From Fibrobacter sp. (lineage in GTDB: Bacteria > Fibrobacterota > Fibrobacteria > Fibrobacterales > Fibrobacteraceae): 64,000 nucleotides of DNA. The DNA lies in the NCBI GenBank assembly GCA_017649565.1, contig JAGCGO010000058.1, positions 1 to 64,000 of the forward strand, written 5' to 3'. The translations under genes and the position numbers were made by a program. Positions 42,217-52,483 of this stretch are shown here, piece after piece. Below the pieces are notes generated by a model, which saw only the letters and a list, made by a program, of their open reading frames with translations, was not told where the DNA came from and did no database searches. The stretch's first letter is position 1. Each line of letters opens with the position of its first letter.

Positions 42217-43113
42217 ATGTCCGGTAAAATACGTTTCGCGCCAAGCCCCACGGGATTCCTGCACGAAGGGCACCTGCTCTCCGCGCTGTACGTCTGGGCT
42301 GCGGCCAGAAAGTGGGACCTCCGGATTCATCTGCGTATAGAGGACCACGACCAGAGCCGGACGCGACCCGCCTATGTCGAAGGTATCCGCGAAGACCTTG
42401 CGTGGTTCGGTTTCCATTACGACAGCGAGAGCATCCAGAGCAATCGCACCCCCGTATACGAAAAGGCCCTTGCACGGCTAGAAGAACAGGGACTCGTGTA
42501 CCCGTGTTTCTGCAGCCGCAAGCAGCTCGAGGCCGAAAACCCCAAGAGCGAGACAGGCGAAATCGTGTACCAGGGGAAATGTTTTTTTAGACGAGAGACG
42601 TGGTTCGACAGGCTCACCAACCGAGAAGGAAGGCGAGAGATAGAGCCGCATAACTTGAGGTTCATTGTTTCAGACAAAGTAATCCACTGGCACGACTTGC
42701 GGCTGGGCGACTTCGCCGAAAACCCGAAACTCCAATGCGGAGACTTTCCCATCCGCGACCGCGAAGGCCAATGGACCTACCAATTCGCCGTCTGCGTCGA
42801 CGATATTGACGAGGGAATCACGCACATTGTCCGCGGCGAGGACATCCGCAGTTCCACGGCCCGCCAAATTGCCCTGCGGGAAGCTCTGGGCACAAAAGAG
42901 CCCCCCGTCTACCTGCACCACGCACTGATATCCGACAGCACCGGCAAGAAACTTTCCAAGAGGGAACTCGCCTACAGTCTCCGCCAGGAACGCGAAGCGG
43001 GCAACTCCCCCGAAATGCTGCTGGGAAGAGTATGCTTCAAGGCCAAATTGCAGGAATCCCCGGCCCCGCTTTCGCTAGACCAAGCGATTTTATTAATAGA
43101 ATCTTGCATATAA
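42217..43113 (+). CDS. gluQ: Glutamyl-Q tRNA(Asp) synthetase
   Basis: 298 residues: the catalytic half of glutamyl-tRNA synthetase without anticodon-binding domain. It glutamylates queuosine in tRNA-Asp. HIGH-type 'FLHEGHL', KMSKS-type KLSKR, and the zinc site C-x-C (CFCS) with YQGKC are present. GGAGA lies before the ATG. Residues 125-143 (RRETWFDRLTNREGRREIE, 19 residues) are an insertion not expected in the family and are encoded by a repeat-like block (42589-42644). Confidence 0.93.
   Translation: MSGKIRFAPSPTGFLHEGHLLSALYVWAAARKWDLRIHLRIEDHDQSRTRPAYVEGIREDLAWFGFHYDSESIQSNRTPVYEKALARLEEQGLVYPCFCSRKQLEAENPKSETGEIVYQGKCFFRRETWFDRLTNREGRREIEPHNLRFIVSDKVIHWHDLRLGDFAENPKLQCGDFPIRDREGQWTYQFAVCVDDIDEGITHIVRGEDIRSSTARQIALREALGTKEPPVYLHHALISDSTGKKLSKRELAYSLRQEREAGNSPEMLLGRVCFKAKLQESPAPLSLDQAILLIESCI
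42589..42644 (+). repeat. Heptamer-phased insertion inside gluQ
   Basis: Eight 7-nt units: AGACGAG, AGACGTG, GTTCGAC, AGGCTCA, CCAACCG, AGAAGGA, AGGCGAG, AGATAGA. The middle, GTTCGACAGGCTCACCAACC (20 nt), is a dispersed repeat core I have met in many unrelated genomes. 56 nt keeps phase 7 but is not a multiple of 3, so flanking bases must have made up the frame. Confidence 0.6.
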
Positions 43114-43147: not shown

Positions 43148-46100
43148 ATGGCACGATTGTTACCGTCATCCATGATTACGAAAATCCGTCAAGAAGCAGC
43201 GCTTTTTGATTCCAAGGATCGTTTTCTGAATTTTTCGACGAAGGTCGCGCTGCAAAGCCCCCTGATCCTGGAGGCGGGTGACCTGTTCTACGAAAAATGG
43301 GTCCAGTCCGGAGAGTCCATATCGCTGGACACCTTCCTGCCAGTTTCTGCAAACTTTACCGCGCAACAGAAGGTAACGACGGAATCGCAGATGCTTTCCG
43401 TGCTGAAGCAGAAGAACGAGGACTACGGCAAGTCCGACCTGTACCTTATACTCGGGTTCCTCAAGTGGGACGGCAATGCGCTCGCCCCGACGCTACTCGT
43501 CCCCGTGGATTTCGATCCGAAGACGAATAAACTTTCGCTGTCCAAGCACCCCGCCATAGAAAACGTGATCTTGCGGGAAAGGCTCAAGGATGTCGTGGAC
43601 CTCCCGAGGGTCGAGGACGCAAGCATCAACGGGCAGTTCAGCATTCTCCTTTACTTCTCACTTTTTGAAAAGGCAGTCCTCAAGGAAAAGAAGTGGAAGT
43701 TCACACGCCACGGGCTTTGCCTCTCGTTCGCCAACGGGGCAAGGCTCAGGCTCAAGAAGCATTTCGAGTCCGACATCTGGGAAGAAAACATCGTCAACGA
43801 CCGCCCGGTCCTCCAGGCGCTATTCGGCGAAGACGGGTTCCAGATGCAGAACTCCTATTTTGACGAAGGTCCGTTCGACGACCTGTTCAACCCGGTAGAC
43901 CACCATTTCCCCTATCCGCTGGATTCGCACACCACCAAGGCCGTGATGGAATCCCTCCTGGACGACAAGTTCGCCTTTGCAGTCCAGACGTTGCCGGGAA
44001 CCGCCAAGGACAAGGTGGCGGCGAACATAGTGGCCGAATCTGTCGCCAACGGCAAAAAGACCCTGGTCGTTTCCAGGAGAGCCGTAACCCGGCTGACATT
44101 CGAGAACGCCTGGAAGCCTCCGTTCAAGTCATTCCAAGGCCCGGACCGCGACGTCATCGACCCGGACTTCATCAAGTCCCGCAAGTCGTTCATCGAATAT
44201 TACAAGACCGTCAACGAGAACATCCAGCCGGCGGGTGCCCCGCTTTCCGACCTGCTTACGGAATTCGCGCTCGCCCCGGCAACAAAGGCCAAGTTCTCGG
44301 AATCTATATTCGACGGCGTAGACAAGCTCGACTTCGCTACGTACAACCGCATCAAGGTCATCGTGGAAAAGGCGATGGACCTGTATTTCAACAAGCAGGG
44401 GGTATCGGCGCGCAAGGCATTCCAGGGAATCAAGGTCCCGAACCTGACCGCCGAAGAAAAGGACACCATCGCCTCGCAGCTCGAGCAGGCCGTGAACAAG
44501 GTCAAGGACCTCCAGCCGATTATCGACATTTTCAAGGATGCATCGCTCTTCCCCACCGGCATCTTCATATCGAGCCTTGCCGAGACCATCGACCTTATAC
44601 TCGAATCGTTTGACGAGAACACGCCCGTCTTCGAAGACTGGGAACTCCGCTCGAACAACTGGGTCGCCTATCACGACTCGCTGAAGGCGCTGCCCGAAGC
44701 GGGAGACAACTGGGTCAGGTACCGTCGCCAGACATCGGACATCTATACCGACGACGCTGTCGACGAGAACGTACTCGCTGCCCGCGAAGAATTCGTGGAC
44801 AGCTTGAATGTCACCTTGAAGGGACTTTCGGACCGCTACCGCAGTTCACGCCGTGCGCTCATGAAAGTTCTCCGCCATCCCAAGTCCGTATCTTCCGATG
44901 CCGAACTGCTCGACCTGATCGACACGCTGCTGGAACTGCAGGAGAACAAGCGCGCCTACAAGGACACCGCCGTTCTCGGCAACCACCTGCTGGGCAAGGA
45001 CTGGAAATACGAGAAGTCCAACTGGTTCGATCTCAACACGAAGATCAAGTACCTGTTCAACTTCCGCGACAAGCACGAGGCCGATCCCAAACTCGACTTC
45101 ATGCTGCAGATCCTGGAACACTGGCACGAGATCAAGCCGCAGCTACAGAACTTCAAGAGCTATGCGAACTCCGTCAAGGCACTGCAGGAGGCCATCCGCA
45201 AGATAGGCAAGCAACTTGACCTGGAGACGCCGCTCGAAAGCCTTTCTATCGAAAAGTGGGTGGACAAGATCAAGTCCTGGAACGAAAACTGGGACAACCT
45301 CGACACCCACACAAGCCTCACACGCCTGTTCAAGGAACTCACGCAGTACGACCTGCGACCGATGCTGGTCTACCTGCAGAACGCAGACAAGGTAAGCAGC
45401 GAGTTTGCCCAGGCCTTCCGTAATTTCTGGTCCCGCACGCAGATCCAGCAACTCGGGACCAAGAACCCCGAACTGTTCTCGCTCTCGCCCAAGGAACGCT
45501 GCATCAAGAGCCGCGATTTCCGCAACCTGTACGACCAGTTCTGCAAGGCAAACTTCCGCATCGCCCACGCCGCAGTCGAGGCGAATCCCGAACTGCTCAC
45601 CGAGGTGACACTCGACGACACCTTTGAACTTACCGGCAAGGAAAATTTCGACATCGTCATCTTCCTCGACGCCGACTGCACCACCATCGTGGAATCCCTG
45701 CCCGCACTGCTGTGCTCGCAGAAGGTCGTGCTGATGGGCAACCCGCATTCGCCGGCCATAGAGATCTTGCCGAACGATGCCTACAACGACGTCCTGCCGA
45801 GGCACACCGCCTACTTCCAGGAATCCCTCCTGGCCGAATCCCTGCGCCGGGGAATCCCGACACGCGAACTCTGGCTTGCCGGTCAGTATGTCGACATGAA
45901 GCTCGTCTGTTTCGCGAACAACAGAATCTACAACCAGGGTATCCGGCAGTTCCCGAGGCCCTTCCGCGAAAAGAGCAACGTCGAATCGCTCACGGTCGTC
46001 GACGACAAGATTCTCGCTATTGCCAATGCGGCAGTACACCATGCACAGAAGCACCCGGCCCAGACACTCGGCATCATAGCATTCCACCAGTCCAGCTGTA

Positions 46101-47251
46101 CGGAAATCGAGGAAGCCATCAGGGCACTCGTCGAGAAGGGCTCGGCTGCCGAAAAGTTCTTCAACCAAGAAAACCCGCTCATCCGCTACTACGTCAAGAC
46201 TCCTGAAAGGGCCACCGACAAGTACCGCGACGTCGTCCTGGTATGCGCCGAACCCGAAGCTACATCGGCGAACAAGCTTGCGGTATGCACGACGCTCGCC
46301 AAGCAGGAACTGCGCGTGTTCATTTCCAATGCGGACATCGCCAAGCACGCGAATCCCAAGGCGACACTGTTCTGGGATTGGATCAGCTACCTGAAGCGCG
46401 AACTCGAGTTCAAGCCGACAGCCCCGCACTGTGGGGAATCCCGCATGCGCAAGGACATCGTCGAGGCACTCGCTGCTAACGACGTAAAGGTCGAACCCAT
46501 TTTCGAAACGGGCAACATCGCCGTCGGACCGGTCGTGGTCGACGCGAACAACCCGAAGCGTTTCCTCGCGCTTATCGAGGACGACTGTACCAGGGAGCGT
46601 TTCCGCGAATCCATCGAGGACACGGAATACGTCCGCCCCATCATGCTGCGCCAGCTCGGTTGGAAGGTCATCAACATCTGGCTGCCCTTCTGGTTCATGT
46701 CCCGCAAGGACGAAGAATCTCACCTTCTCGCGACAGTCGCTATCGAACAGAGCGTCGCCCCGCCGCCACCGGAAGAGACCGGAGAAAACGGCGAAGCGGA
46801 AAACGCCGAGAACGAAGCCTACAGTGTCGAGGTGGTCCCGTACAAGTGCACGCACCCGAACATTGAGGGCACACCCCACGACAAGCCCATCCCGGAATTG
46901 CCGGCAGCGTCGCTTATCACCCAGCTGAAATTCTATGTCGACCACGAGGCGCCCATCCACGAGGAACTGCTGCGCCACAGGCTTATGGAACTGCACCATG
47001 TCGACCGCGAAGGTCCCATGATCCAGAAGGCTCTCACCGAGGCCATCAACCAGGGTCTGCAGTCAAAGAAGTTCATCAAGACAGGTACGTTCTTCTACAG
47101 CACCAAGCAGATAGAGCTGAAGCCCCGCGACAGGTCGCAGTGCAGCGAGTTCGAACGCAAGTTCGCCTATGTCGCCCCGGAAGAACGCGCGCTCCTGCCG
47201 TCGTCGATGGACGAGTTCACAATAAAGCAGACCCTCGGCCTGCTGGAATAA
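43148..47251 (+). CDS. DUF4011 / SF1-helicase-like / Vsr-like nuclease / DUF3320 protein with degenerate active sites
   Basis: 1367 residues in one intact frame. Residues ~1-215 match DUF4011 (SDLYLILGFLKWDG, LLVPVDF). Next is an SF1 helicase-like core: the Walker A position reads QTLPGTAKDK (about 281-290) where relatives have QGPPGTGKSQ; Walker B is VIFLDADC (about 835) where relatives have DEAS; motif VI is AVCTTLAKQEL where relatives have TRAR. A Vsr/MTES_1575-type nuclease segment (about 1095-1195) has LALIEDDC in place of LGIECDG and lacks the Asp of the preceding strand, but keeps 'RQLGWKVINIW'. The end matches DUF3320. In other bacteria such fusions (Hhe type) act in phage defence; here they appear catalytically dead. 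Isolated between gluQ and a SPOR gene. Confidence 0.8.
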   Translation: MARLLPSSMITKIRQEAALFDSKDRFLNFSTKVALQSPLILEAGDLFYEKWVQSGESISLDTFLPVSANFTAQQKVTTESQMLSVLKQKNEDYGKSDLYLILGFLKWDGNALAPTLLVPVDFDPKTNKLSLSKHPAIENVILRERLKDVVDLPRVEDASINGQFSILLYFSLFEKAVLKEKKWKFTRHGLCLSFANGARLRLKKHFESDIWEENIVNDRPVLQALFGEDGFQMQNSYFDEGPFDDLFNPVDHHFPYPLDSHTTKAVMESLLDDKFAFAVQTLPGTAKDKVAANIVAESVANGKKTLVVSRRAVTRLTFENAWKPPFKSFQGPDRDVIDPDFIKSRKSFIEYYKTVNENIQPAGAPLSDLLTEFALAPATKAKFSESIFDGVDKLDFATYNRIKVIVEKAMDLYFNKQGVSARKAFQGIKVPNLTAEEKDTIASQLEQAVNKVKDLQPIIDIFKDASLFPTGIFISSLAETIDLILESFDENTPVFEDWELRSNNWVAYHDSLKALPEAGDNWVRYRRQTSDIYTDDAVDENVLAAREEFVDSLNVTLKGLSDRYRSSRRALMKVLRHPKSVSSDAELLDLIDTLLELQENKRAYKDTAVLGNHLLGKDWKYEKSNWFDLNTKIKYLFNFRDKHEADPKLDFMLQILEHWHEIKPQLQNFKSYANSVKALQEAIRKIGKQLDLETPLESLSIEKWVDKIKSWNENWDNLDTHTSLTRLFKELTQYDLRPMLVYLQNADKVSSEFAQAFRNFWSRTQIQQLGTKNPELFSLSPKERCIKSRDFRNLYDQFCKANFRIAHAAVEANPELLTEVTLDDTFELTGKENFDIVIFLDADCTTIVESLPALLCSQKVVLMGNPHSPAIEILPNDAYNDVLPRHTAYFQESLLAESLRRGIPTRELWLAGQYVDMKLVCFANNRIYNQGIRQFPRPFREKSNVESLTVVDDKILAIANAAVHHAQKHPAQTLGIIAFHQSSCTEIEEAIRALVEKGSAAEKFFNQENPLIRYYVKTPERATDKYRDVVLVCAEPEATSANKLAVCTTLAKQELRVFISNADIAKHANPKATLFWDWISYLKRELEFKPTAPHCGESRMRKDIVEALAANDVKVEPIFETGNIAVGPVVVDANNPKRFLALIEDDCTRERFRESIEDTEYVRPIMLRQLGWKVINIWLPFWFMSRKDEESHLLATVAIEQSVAPPPPEETGENGEAENAENEAYSVEVVPYKCTHPNIEGTPHDKPIPELPAASLITQLKFYVDHEAPIHEELLRHRLMELHHVDREGPMIQKALTEAINQGLQSKKFIKTGTFFYSTKQIELKPRDRSQCSEFERKFAYVAPEERALLPSSMDEFTIKQTLGLLE

Positions 47252-47830: not shown

Positions 47831-50800
47831 CTACTTATCGTCGTCCACAATTTCCGCAGTCATCTTCTTAGCCTTCTTCGTGCGACGGACACCCCACATC
47901 TGGGTTTCTTCCATCTTGTTCTTCTTGCCAAACTTGGCCAGGTGGACAGAAGAAGTCATCTTCGAGATGTAGGCGCCGGTACCCACGAGACGCTTTTCAG
48001 CGGACACGAGGTTCCAGGAGATGAAGAAGTTACGCTGGGTATCCAAGCAGGTATGACCATCTCCGAAGATTTCCTTGTCGTCGCACTTGATCTTCACGAC
48101 GTCGTGAGCGACAAAGTTACCGAGGTTAGAGAAGAGGTCCAGCTGGAATTCAAGGTAAACCTTGCTGATTTCATCCTTGTTGTTCGGGTCAGTGAACCAC
48201 TTGGAGATGGAAGTATCAGAGTAGACCAGCGAGTTCATGTCGGACTTCAGGAAGTAACCGAGCTTACCCGGGTTGGCAGCCTTGACGGAATCGAAGGTCA
48301 CCGTCACGTCGTAAGGCTTGACCGTGGTAATCTTGATATCATCCTTCTTAATCTTGTTCACGATATCCGGAGACACTTCGGTGTACTTGATAGCCTTCAC
48401 GCCGACTTCAGCTTCACCCGTGACCGGAGTCCATGCCGACGGCAGACGGATTGTGGCATCGTAAGACGTCGGAGAGTTCCAGTCATAAGAAGCATCCTCA
48501 GGCGGACGGAGGGTATCACCCAGAATCGCGATGTTCGAGGTATCAGACCAAATCTTGCTGTCCGTACGGAAGCGGATGTAGTCGCCCGTATGCGGAGTCG
48601 GATTGTCGTCGGAACCGGTATAGTAGAGGGTCACCTTGTCAGAACCGATCGTAGGAGTCGTAGACTTGACACCAACGACGAACTTCTGTTCCGGAGTCTT
48701 CAGGTTGGCAGCGGAGTTCAGGTACACCGTGAAGGCGGTCGTCGCCATGCCAGCATCAACGAGCTTAACCGGTTCAGAAAGGGTCAACGTCATAACGTCC
48801 GTATTTTCGTCACGCTGGCGAACGTCGGCAGCCTTGATGAACGGAGCAACACGGTCTATGATAACGCCCGGGAACGGATCTTCCTTAACCTTACCGCGAT
48901 CGCTATAGCGAGCGTAAGACTTCAGGTTAGCGCTCGGGTTCATGGTCTTGACATCCTTAGAGAAGTTCACACCGTCGATCGAGACACGCTGCAAGCAGAG
49001 TGTATCGTCAAGGCCGGCTGCGGAACCGCAACGCATGCTGGACATAAACACGTCTCTTTCGACAACGACAGAGTCGTCACCGTCATCCCAGAACACGACA
49101 ATTCGGTTCGGCAGGGAGTCCGGGCTGTTGTAGAACGGACGGTTATAGTAGATAACCAGGGAGTCCGCAATACCATCGAGGTATTCCTTACCCATATCGA
49201 AATACGGTTCCTTCATATTCAGTTCGGTGGTCGACTTCTTGCCATGAGCGTCGAAGATGTCGGCAAAGACCGGATACGGTACAGGCGGCTTCTTGAAGTG
49301 GAGCGGAGAGTAGAGAGCATTAATCAAGTCAGGCTTCGGACCGACAATGCTGAGCGTAGCCGGGTTGTCCGGCATGCCGTCACCGGCAACACGGTATTCC
49401 TTAGTAGAATAGATGTTAACCGTTGCACGACCATTGACAAGGACAAGCGTATCGCCAGCGGCCAGAGCAATACCCGCAGAGGTCGTAGAACCGATTGTCA
49501 AGGGGAAGTTGCAGCGTTCGCCACATTCCTCGTACTTGCCGGGTTCCGTCATGGACGGGGCCAAGGCCAAGACGTAGAACGTGTACACCGGACCAACGAA
49601 CCTTTCGACATCAACCGGGTCGCCGCCAAGCGGTTCCGTGCTCGTTTCCGATTCAACGAAGACAAGCTTCGGGACGTAGAAGGTCACGGGCAGCTGGAGG
49701 CTACCGCCATTCACGCTAATCATGAAGGTCTGCTGTTCACTCTGAATGAAGGACATGTCAAGAGAAGCATAGACGGTATCGACACCGGTCGCACCAATCG
49801 TACGGGCAGCCTTACCAGTCCAGCTCTTGAAGGTTCCGTCAGCTTCCTTAGTTTCAAGCTTGATTGCACCAACAGCGGCACCCTGAGCACCAGTGATGTT
49901 GAGAGTGTACTGCTGTTCAACAGCGCCTTCGAAATCAAGATCAAGATCATCACCGGCAAACAGAACCGACGTAATGTAGATCGGGATTCTTGTCAGGTTA
50001 CCGGCCGAGCTAGCCAAGGCGGAATTAACCACAGTGTACTGAACGGGGAGACCGCTGATATCCTGTCCGGCAGCATTCTCGTTAATGACTTCAAGGTTAC
50101 CTTCGACGGTGAACGTCCAAGATTCCTCGCTATTGTTGATCCTAGCTTCAAGAACGTAGTTACCCGCAGAAAGTTCCTTAATCAGACCCTTATTGATAGT
50201 CGGGCTGCAGCGGTTCGTCAAATCAAGGCCGCCCTTATAAGTATTCGGATCAGCAAGTTGCGCCTGATCCATGATGACATCGCCCTTTTCTGTGGTGAGA
50301 GAGTAGTCAACGGTCATGCCATTCTGTTTCAGGTACTCGCACAATTCGTCACCACACATCTTCTTGCCGCTACCACCACCGCAGGAACCATCGCTCGAAA
50401 TAGCGTAGCAGAGTTCGTAATCACTCTTACCGCCACGGCCATCGTTCGTCTGGTCCTTGCTAAGACCGGTCTGCTGCTTAATGAACATGTTCGTCTTGAT
50501 ACGCACGTTACTCATCGTCGTACGGCGGTCGCAGAAGAAGATATCGATATCGTATTCAGTACCAATCTTCAGATCACCCGAGGCGCCCTTGAAATTATCC
50601 AAGTCTACGTAACCCGGAGCGGCCAAGTGAGTACCACCGAGGTCCACGGCCAGCTTGTTGTCGATATAGACCCAAATGTCGTCATCGCCACGGAAGCTGA
50701 AGCGCAGGCCCTTCTTGTAACGGAAGTTCGCATGAGATTCGAAGCAGAAGTGCTGGTTACGACCGGCATTCTTAAGGACATCGCCATATTCAGTGTCCGG

Positions 50801-52483
50801 ATCACCCGAAGTCCAGCGGGCGTTGCCCTCGGGATTCTGGTTCTTCCCAACCTTTGTGCCACTAATCTTTTCACCCGAAGAATAGAACGTCCAACCAATA
50901 GGAGCGTCCTGCGGGCAACCCCAGCCCCAGCCGTCGCCGTCGAAGCTGATAGTTCTGTTGCCGACTCGAATGGTTTCTTCCCATTCACCACCGTTAGCAA
51001 ACAGGCCATCGCACTTAATACCACCGTTCCAACCCGGACCGTTACAGAGCAAGTCAATCTCCGGAACGCCTTCCTGGGCATTGATTGCGCGGAGGCCATC
51101 ACCAAACTGACCGTTCGTGCACAAGAACACCGGACCTTCAGCCAAGCGCTTGTTTTCGGCAGCAGGGATATGTTCCGTCAACAAGTTCGTCGGAGTCTTT
51201 TCTGCCGGATAGAAACCACCCGGAGCAGGATATTCGCCACCCGGAGGACCCTGGTAATTGTCAGAATCGAACTCGTACTTACCGTCATCCGTCTGAGTGA
51301 ACGGCATGTTGAAGCAGTAGGCTTCGTTCACACCCGGAGTCGGGTTGAACATAGCTTCAAAGGCCTTATCAGCATCGCTACCGAAGCAAGACTTACCCTT
51401 AGTCGTGAGTGCCGGCTTCTTCGTAGTCGCATCCAGGACATCCGTCACCATACCCGGAGTAACACCGATACAGGGGACAATTGCCGTAGCAGAAGAGACA
51501 ACATTGTACGGAGCATTGGGATAGTAGCAAGCGTTGTTCTTACAAACATCCGGATTGCCCTGACATTGCTGTTCATAATGGCTGCAAGTAAATGCACCGT
51601 GCAAGCTAGCATCGGTATCATAAATGTTAGCAGCAAGGTCATATCCGCAAGCACCTTGTTTCAGCGGATCAGTGGCGCTCCAACCAGCCATAGCGGGATT
51701 GGTCTTATCGGCAAACTCGTTTGCAGCGACAAAAAAGATTTCATCAGAGCCTAGGAACGAGAACATCGAGGCCAGGTCGATGGCAACCGGATCACCAACG
51801 CCCCAGTCACCTTCCATGCCGATAGCTTCCTTCATCTGTTCGTCGTCATCACGATAGATAAGGACTTCGGTAGGAGGTTCCTCATCAACAAAGCGCCTGT
51901 AATACCAACCGCACCTATCGGGATCAGCATCCATGGGCTTTCCTGCCGCACCACCAATGCTCATCATAGGAATGGCGCTCTTCCACTTGACATCTTCGGG
52001 CAGCATGATACGGAAGTACTTCACGTCAGCCGGGTTGTTAGAAATATACGGTTTAGACGGATCAGACGGATCCGGTTCGATCCACAGCTCCCCGTTTTTA
52101 CCGAAGGCTTTACAGGTAAAGCCCGTTGCTTCCGAGAACTGGACCGATTCTCCGTTCGAAGTAATAATCTTCGGCGTTATAGACGGATACTGACCGTAGT
52201 CGTTCGCACGGCTAGCGATATTAAAACCCGTCGCATCGTTCGTTCCACCGACATCTTCAGCAGAAAGTTGCAACCATCCCGTGGTAGAACTCTTCTTGAA
52301 GGCAATAAAGTTACCTCCAGCTGCTGCATAGGCAGTAGTCCATCCATCGGGCAGCTTCAAATATATCGTGCCTTCGCACGGTAGCGCTGCATACACCCCT
52401 TGCACCCCTGCAAAGAGAAGAACTAATGCAAACACCAATTTTTTTAAGGCGTTATATTGTTTTTTCATAATCTTCTTTTCCAT
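47831..52483 (-). CDS. Fibro-slime domain adhesin
   Basis: 1550 residues with signal peptide (ending GVYAALP). The ATG at 52483 has GGAG 7 nt upstream; an in-frame ATG five codons later is possible. Residues about 505-665 are the fibro-slime domain, a PA14-like beta barrel: DGWGWGCPQDAPIGWTFY, 'CFESHANFRY', 'RFSFRGDDDIWVYIDNKL' and 'DLGGTHLAAPG'. Before it lies a ~480-residue Cys-rich region with many NGQFGDG-type turns; after it, Ig-like modules with repeated 'DTLVL' strands, and a terminal domain (WNLVSAEKRLVGTGAYI). Fibro-slime proteins were found in the outer membrane of Fibrobacter succinogenes and linked to cellulose binding. No T9SS tail is obvious; the C-terminus is basic then acidic. 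Confidence 0.9.
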   Translation of the reverse strand: MEKKIMKKQYNALKKLVFALVLLFAGVQGVYAALPCEGTIYLKLPDGWTTAYAAAGGNFIAFKKSSTTGWLQLSAEDVGGTNDATGFNIASRANDYGQYPSITPKIITSNGESVQFSEATGFTCKAFGKNGELWIEPDPSDPSKPYISNNPADVKYFRIMLPEDVKWKSAIPMMSIGGAAGKPMDADPDRCGWYYRRFVDEEPPTEVLIYRDDDEQMKEAIGMEGDWGVGDPVAIDLASMFSFLGSDEIFFVAANEFADKTNPAMAGWSATDPLKQGACGYDLAANIYDTDASLHGAFTCSHYEQQCQGNPDVCKNNACYYPNAPYNVVSSATAIVPCIGVTPGMVTDVLDATTKKPALTTKGKSCFGSDADKAFEAMFNPTPGVNEAYCFNMPFTQTDDGKYEFDSDNYQGPPGGEYPAPGGFYPAEKTPTNLLTEHIPAAENKRLAEGPVFLCTNGQFGDGLRAINAQEGVPEIDLLCNGPGWNGGIKCDGLFANGGEWEETIRVGNRTISFDGDGWGWGCPQDAPIGWTFYSSGEKISGTKVGKNQNPEGNARWTSGDPDTEYGDVLKNAGRNQHFCFESHANFRYKKGLRFSFRGDDDIWVYIDNKLAVDLGGTHLAAPGYVDLDNFKGASGDLKIGTEYDIDIFFCDRRTTMSNVRIKTNMFIKQQTGLSKDQTNDGRGGKSDYELCYAISSDGSCGGGSGKKMCGDELCEYLKQNGMTVDYSLTTEKGDVIMDQAQLADPNTYKGGLDLTNRCSPTINKGLIKELSAGNYVLEARINNSEESWTFTVEGNLEVINENAAGQDISGLPVQYTVVNSALASSAGNLTRIPIYITSVLFAGDDLDLDFEGAVEQQYTLNITGAQGAAVGAIKLETKEADGTFKSWTGKAARTIGATGVDTVYASLDMSFIQSEQQTFMISVNGGSLQLPVTFYVPKLVFVESETSTEPLGGDPVDVERFVGPVYTFYVLALAPSMTEPGKYEECGERCNFPLTIGSTTSAGIALAAGDTLVLVNGRATVNIYSTKEYRVAGDGMPDNPATLSIVGPKPDLINALYSPLHFKKPPVPYPVFADIFDAHGKKSTTELNMKEPYFDMGKEYLDGIADSLVIYYNRPFYNSPDSLPNRIVVFWDDGDDSVVVERDVFMSSMRCGSAAGLDDTLCLQRVSIDGVNFSKDVKTMNPSANLKSYARYSDRGKVKEDPFPGVIIDRVAPFIKAADVRQRDENTDVMTLTLSEPVKLVDAGMATTAFTVYLNSAANLKTPEQKFVVGVKSTTPTIGSDKVTLYYTGSDDNPTPHTGDYIRFRTDSKIWSDTSNIAILGDTLRPPEDASYDWNSPTSYDATIRLPSAWTPVTGEAEVGVKAIKYTEVSPDIVNKIKKDDIKITTVKPYDVTVTFDSVKAANPGKLGYFLKSDMNSLVYSDTSISKWFTDPNNKDEISKVYLEFQLDLFSNLGNFVAHDVVKIKCDDKEIFGDGHTCLDTQRNFFISWNLVSAEKRLVGTGAYISKMTSSVHLAKFGKKNKMEETQMWGVRRTKKAKKMTAEIVDDDK

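Follow-up and report, generated by a model that had tools for sequence, protein, structure and literature searches.

Helicase-nucleases with a DUF4011 region, a superfamily 1 (SF1) helicase, a Vsr-like nuclease and a DUF3320 region, in this order, include the anti-phage candidates PDC-S37 (a single-gene defence candidate of PADLOC), Hhe and ProA, which are patchily distributed. RecC of RecBCD and AddB of AddAB also have helicase-like and nuclease-like folds, in which the catalytic residues are lost and the folds are kept for recognition or structure (PMC1185551, PMC4824097). In RecC, the nuclease-like domain is no longer catalytic and instead forms a hoop for single-stranded DNA (PMC1185551), and the helicase-like domain of AddAB, in AddB, serves Chi recognition (PMC4824097). 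Similarly, Utp25/Def, a pseudohelicase of ribosome assembly, is a conserved core protein that keeps its fold with the motifs lost or dispensable (PMC9539457). A 64,000-nucleotide stretch of Fibrobacter sp. DNA (contig JAGCGO010000058.1, hereafter the window) carries a gene whose product has the same domain order as PDC-S37, Hhe and ProA and is homologous to them over most of its length, but has all helicase and nuclease motifs altered. Comparisons across the family Fibrobacteraceae indicate that this product is very probably an ancient pseudoenzyme maintained by selection. The open reading frame (ORF) starts with ATG and is open over all 1367 codons. The gene and its domains are as follows.

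43148..47251, + strand: putative pseudo-helicase/nuclease gene, 1367 residues (from the ORF, orthologues and dN/dS, the ratio of non-synonymous to synonymous substitution rates)
43148..43951, + strand: N-terminal DUF4011-like region, residues 1-268 (Pfam DUF4011 at residues 86-146)
44138..45547, + strand: helical insert between the first RecA motifs and motif II, residues 331-800 (from the model; the PDC-S37 and ProA matches are strongest here)
46451..46732, + strand: Vsr-like (MTES_1575) nuclease-like domain, residues 1102-1195 (Pfam, with weak Foldseek matches to 3hrl and 3r3p)
46868..47248, + strand: C-terminal DUF3320 region, probably a winged helix, residues 1241-1367 (Pfam, dN/dS, the model and weak winged-helix matches)

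The domain order had been proposed in the initial annotation, and Pfam, PADLOC, NCBIfam and Foldseek all back it. The best library match is PADLOC PDC-S37 (2.8e-107, 358 bits). The NCBIfam models ProA (2.9e-72, 243.8 bits) and Hhe (2.6e-21, 74.8 bits) also match, at scores below their equivalog cut-offs of 1500 and 2000 bits, respectively. Among the Pfam domains, DUF4011 exceeds its cut-off (6e-5, 23.5 bits vs. 22.2), the MTES_1575 Vsr-like nuclease falls slightly under it (2e-8), and DUF3320 is also under it (3e-4). The DUF3320 region is among the best-conserved parts of the protein, and a conserved Trp-rich segment (residues 498-632) lies inside the helical insert. Examples of invariant residues are W498, W522, W619 and W626 of this segment and R1163. 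A sequence search for solved homologues returned none, and next to nothing was found in the literature on DUF4011. With ~1370 residues the protein is shorter than the compared PDC-S37-type homologues, which have at least 1530.

An AlphaFold model of residues 1-1200 has a mean predicted local distance difference test (pLDDT) score of 89 and a predicted template modelling (pTM) score of 0.74. Its best solved Foldseek matches are Aquarius, Dna2, UPF1 and SETX (E values of 8e-11 to 1e-9), which are active ATPases with sequence identities of 9-15%. The predicted fold is that of a Upf1-like SF1B helicase, which the model indicates to be kept despite the loss of the motifs. Residues 1080-1367, modelled separately (pLDDT 85, pTM 0.51), gave weak, sub-significant Foldseek matches that include the Vsr-like endonucleases 3hrl (target TM score of 0.73) and 3r3p and several winged helices. 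These matches are in line with the Pfam domain names.

Alignment of 27 orthologues, with identities down to ~30%, and 11 intact-motif homologues (three from Fibrobacter and eight from plasmids of other lineages) showed that the alterations noted in the initial annotation are all real. Every one of the orthologues shares the loss in motifs I, II, IV, V and VI and in the nuclease, and the same catalytic residues are kept in all 11 homologues outside the inactive group. The residues lost throughout are the Ser/Thr of motif I and the Gly before it, DE of motif II, HYRS of motif IV, VQGDE of motif V and the Arg of motif VI. The nuclease has likewise lost its first Asp and its Gly in all 27. The sites in the window protein, compared with the intact homologues, are listed below.

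43994..44014, + strand: degenerate motif I (Walker A), PGTAKDK, residues 283-289, in which PPGTGKSQT has become LPGTAKDKV; Lys287 is kept, Gly286 and Ser288 are lost
45665..45679, + strand: degenerate motif II (Walker B), LDADC for DEASQ, residues 840-844
45737..45757, + strand: degenerate motif III, GNPHSPA for GDxKQxPP, residues 864-870, in which GDxKQ has become GNPHS
45875..45889, + strand: degenerate motif IV, residues 910-914, in which HYRS has become AGQYV, with a register uncertain by a few residues
46211..46231, + strand: degenerate motif V, ATDKYRD for VQGDERD, residues 1022-1028, with the final RD kept
46286..46303, + strand: degenerate motif VI, CTTLAK, residues 1047-1052, with Leu1050 for the Arg
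46526..46528, + strand: nuclease position where the first catalytic Asp has been replaced by Gly1127
46577..46588, + strand: EDDC for ECDG, residues 1144-1147, in which ECDGxxYH has become EDDCTRER; Glu1144 and Asp1146 are invariant, and the aromatic residue and the His are also gone

Some of the motif assignments needed refinement. The replacement of PGTGKS by PGTAKDK in Walker A stands, but the lysine is still there in the window protein and is lost only in several orthologues. The Walker B change had been read as DADC for DEAS; the alignment shifts the register so that DEAS faces Leu840-Asp841-Ala842-Asp843, which puts Leu in place of the Mg-ligand Asp and Asp in place of the catalytic Glu. 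The reading of TLAK for TRAR in motif VI holds. In the nuclease, the first Asp and the Gly are lost as proposed, but Glu and Asp of the ExD element are retained. The intact SF1 motifs I, II, IV, V and VI and the intact Vsr-like site (D...ExDG) of the DUF4011 anti-phage class are thus missing from the protein, ExD excepted. Among 52 aligned sequences, Leu840, Asp841, Ala842 and Leu1050 are fixed in all and Gly1127 nearly so; Glu1144, Asp1146 and Asp1132 are invariant. Positions 286 and 288 of the ligand loop vary freely, and Lys287 is present in 43 of the 52, with Trp or Ala in the remainder. Fixed replacements beside a drifting ligand loop are the pattern expected of a site that would have been rebuilt for structure, with the nucleotide-contacting positions released.

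Within the genus, 78 of 80 genomes carry an orthologue, and the remaining two genomes are 65% and 71% complete. Orthologues were also found in six other genera of the family, in 15 genomes. The orthologue search found none in the family's genera g25, g26, g27 and g31 or in the other searched families of the phylum. A match in the g27 genome G122 was rejected as a family member, being a fragment with an intact motif (GPPGTGKSQT). Three of these 80 Fibrobacter genomes have full-length homologues with intact motifs (L064:5392-9993 in G032, L065:3329-9193 in G046 and L066:5344-11289 in G006), and an intact Fibrobacter member scores 1407 bits on PDC-S37, compared with 358 for the window protein. 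In G032, a type IIG restriction gene and a PDC-S01 gene are found close to the homologue. Plasmid and phage searches gave only distant homologues of the inactive form, and viral contigs gave none. The inactive proteins form one clade, set apart by one branch from the intact-motif forms with a support of 100 in the SH-like approximate likelihood ratio test (SH-aLRT), in a tree that is a quick build without bootstrap and has a long branch between the two groups. Thus, a single inactivation can explain all the inactive forms.

Nei-Gojobori comparisons of the gene with five close relatives gave whole-gene dN/dS values of 0.061-0.092, within the range of the neighbouring genes (exonuclease, 0.01-0.03; topoisomerase, 0.04-0.07; gluQ, 0.09-0.15). 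The values per domain are 0.02-0.13, except for the looser short linker of residues 1201-1240. The inactive RecA-like parts (0.03-0.11) and the inactive nuclease (0.04-0.08) are as constrained as the rest. On these estimates, purifying selection is shown to be strong along the full length of the gene. The initial annotation had taken the length of the open frame as the sign of selection, an argument that fails: a 1270-codon frame (47942-51754, + strand) lies antisense to a 1550-codon gene (47831-52483, - strand) in the same window, and since long antisense frames are common here, ORF length is weak evidence. Selection for a non-catalytic role, the conclusion drawn from it, is nevertheless supported on other grounds, namely the shared inactivation in one clade, the low dN/dS, the equal constraint on the inactive domains and the near-universal presence in the genus. 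Conservation of fold and lineage together with the loss of catalytic residues makes the pseudoenzyme status well supported by sequence and selection.

Comparison of loci across the family showed that the gene almost always follows gluQ immediately and in the same orientation, 34 bp downstream of it in the window.

42217..43113, + strand: gluQ, tRNA-Asp glutamyl-Q synthetase (library match; loci compared across the family)

Between-genome distances of the two genes correlate strongly (Mantel r of 0.85; not one of 999 permutations reached this value), as vertical inheritance would predict, although joint transfer of the neighbouring genes could give the same result. The two genes can also occur apart: one genome without gluQ (G160) keeps the pseudoenzyme gene, another (G052) carries each on its own contig, and in g27 genomes gluQ genes or gluQ fragments occur with no pseudoenzyme gene. 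The g27 gluQ genes (L136-L141 and L145) are shorter, encoding ~230-280 residues, and stand in varying gene contexts, in comparison with the stable pair elsewhere. GluQ as an obligatory partner was considered and is weakened by the genomes holding one gene without the other.

Several other explanations were weighed against these observations. Two orthologues are interrupted, through real loss or assembly error, one by a frameshift near residue 215 (G058, L067) and one by a single TAG (G027, L068), and a few more are cut by contig ends. Gene decay or an artefact of assembly is nevertheless practically eliminated by the purifying selection (dN/dS of 0.06-0.09) on a frame that stays open in ~90 genomes from different species. 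The protein might still be an enzyme that binds nucleotide through Lys287, frequent among the aligned sequences, or cleaves in a metal-dependent way through the invariant Glu1144 and Asp1146, with the equally invariant Asp1132 replacing the lost Asp. This appears improbable. The motif I Ser/Thr, the Walker B Asp and the Arg residues of motifs IV and VI are lost in all 27 aligned orthologues, Lys287 gives way to Trp or Ala in others, and Asp1132 is not a substitute because several active homologues carry it beside the normal catalytic Asp. A RecC-like subunit of a Fibrobacter recombination nuclease would fit the anatomy, as RecC is likewise an inactive helicase joined to an inactive nuclease (PMC1185551). 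However, recC, recB and recD lie together on another contig of the same genome (TIGR01450, 1.8e-68; TIGR01447, 3.4e-93), the protein has no sequence similarity to that RecC and no NCBIfam recC or addB match, and a g27 genome lacking the pseudoenzyme gene also has RecB and RecC. A replacement RecC is thereby ruled out, and the reading as the RecC-like subunit is highly improbable. Foldseek lists AddA chains of AddAB, as expected from the shared SF1 fold. Separately, a 1651-residue ORF of the same genome (L146:3231-8183, contig C102, - strand), ~5 kb from the recC-recB-recD genes, combines a RecQ-like helicase (residues 256-629) with a UvrD-like helicase (from about residue 1058), and related genomes have ORFs of similar length with UvrD_C matches.

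The initial annotation had placed the protein in a phage-defence class (Hhe-like) and had offered scaffold, sensor, decoy or regulator as its role. Ancestry in the anti-phage superfamily is borne out by the PDC-S37, ProA and Hhe matches, and active homologues persist in a few Fibrobacter genomes, one of them beside the restriction and PDC-S01 genes. The protein could still have a non-catalytic part in defence, whether as sensor, decoy or regulator; it might, for instance, trap a phage inhibitor that targets active DUF4011 helicases. This is unlikely, since defence genes are usually patchy and mobile whereas this gene is single-copy and vertically inherited in a conserved core locus, outside any mobile or defence-island context; phage, plasmid and viral collections hold no close relative, and the low dN/dS carries no sign of an arms race. 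The protein is also the sole DUF4011 protein in its genome. An active paralogue, for which the initial annotation had suggested looking, is absent there, and with full-length active homologues in so few genomes of the genus, a decoy or regulator of such a paralogue is the least likely of the four roles. What ties the protein to phage defence is its ancestry, as the gene itself occupies a conserved core locus. A role alongside GluQ in translation or tRNA biology, such as that of a factor binding tRNA or the ribosome, is of similarly low probability. The position downstream of gluQ in nearly all loci of six genera, the frequent action of Upf1-like SF1B proteins on RNA, and the Toxoplasma mitoribosomal proteins that are the top, sub-significant Foldseek matches of the C-terminal domain point in this direction; but the linkage is separable, and two core genes can stay adjacent by chance. 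The adjacency hints at RNA and is not decisive.

A non-catalytic scaffold for nucleic acid or protein is, with moderate confidence, the probable role. The comparisons show that the ancestor was an SF1 (Upf1-like) DUF4011 helicase with a Vsr-like nuclease, from the superfamily of PDC-S37, Hhe and ProA. On the stem of the Fibrobacteraceae copies it lost its ATPase and nuclease residues, and the gene was domesticated as a single-copy, vertically inherited gene behind gluQ. The two RecA-like lobes, the helical insert, the Vsr-like fold and the C-terminal winged helix may then form a static platform that binds nucleic acid and docks an active partner. This platform is proposed tentatively, as the likeliest mode of action, by analogy with RecC and AddB, which serve in DNA-break processing, and with Utp25. 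The analogy is one of strategy: beyond the SF1 fold, RecC and AddB have no detectable homology to the protein and are of UvrD-like (SF1A) rather than Upf1-like origin, and the genome has its own RecBCD beside it, whereas Utp25/Def is a DEAD-box (SF2) protein of eukaryotic ribosome assembly without a nuclease-like domain. Several points weigh against a scaffold or platform. Nucleic-acid binding is suggested by the predicted fold only. No partner gene was identified, and the sole constant neighbour, gluQ, is not obligatory. Since the protein keeps Lys287 and the ExD of its nuclease, it may still have some capacity to bind nucleotide or metal. Because the gene is absent from g25, g26, g27 and g31, its function there would be dispensable or replaced. 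It is plausible, though uncertain, that a Upf1-like helicase-nuclease of the phage-defence type lost both activities in a single event on the Fibrobacteraceae stem and became a core non-catalytic recognition or scaffold subunit of a complex, a RecC-like solution that would have arisen independently from a defence protein.

The pseudoenzyme also bears on the annotation of defence systems. A PADLOC-based rumen survey ranked Fibrobacter among the genera with the most defence systems (PMC11834463). By profile score, the PDC-S37 model strongly matches the pseudoenzyme in nearly all Fibrobacter genomes. Since such a match to a core pseudoenzyme recurs in nearly every genome, the PADLOC defence counts for Fibrobacter may be inflated by this gene, and part of the rank in the rumen survey may come from it. 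The ~90 natural variants can be used to map the working surface of the protein, and the role of an inactive helicase-nuclease in the cell is a testable question. The gene presents a clear case of a protein from a defence superfamily that turned into a core pseudoenzyme across most of a family of important fibre degraders.

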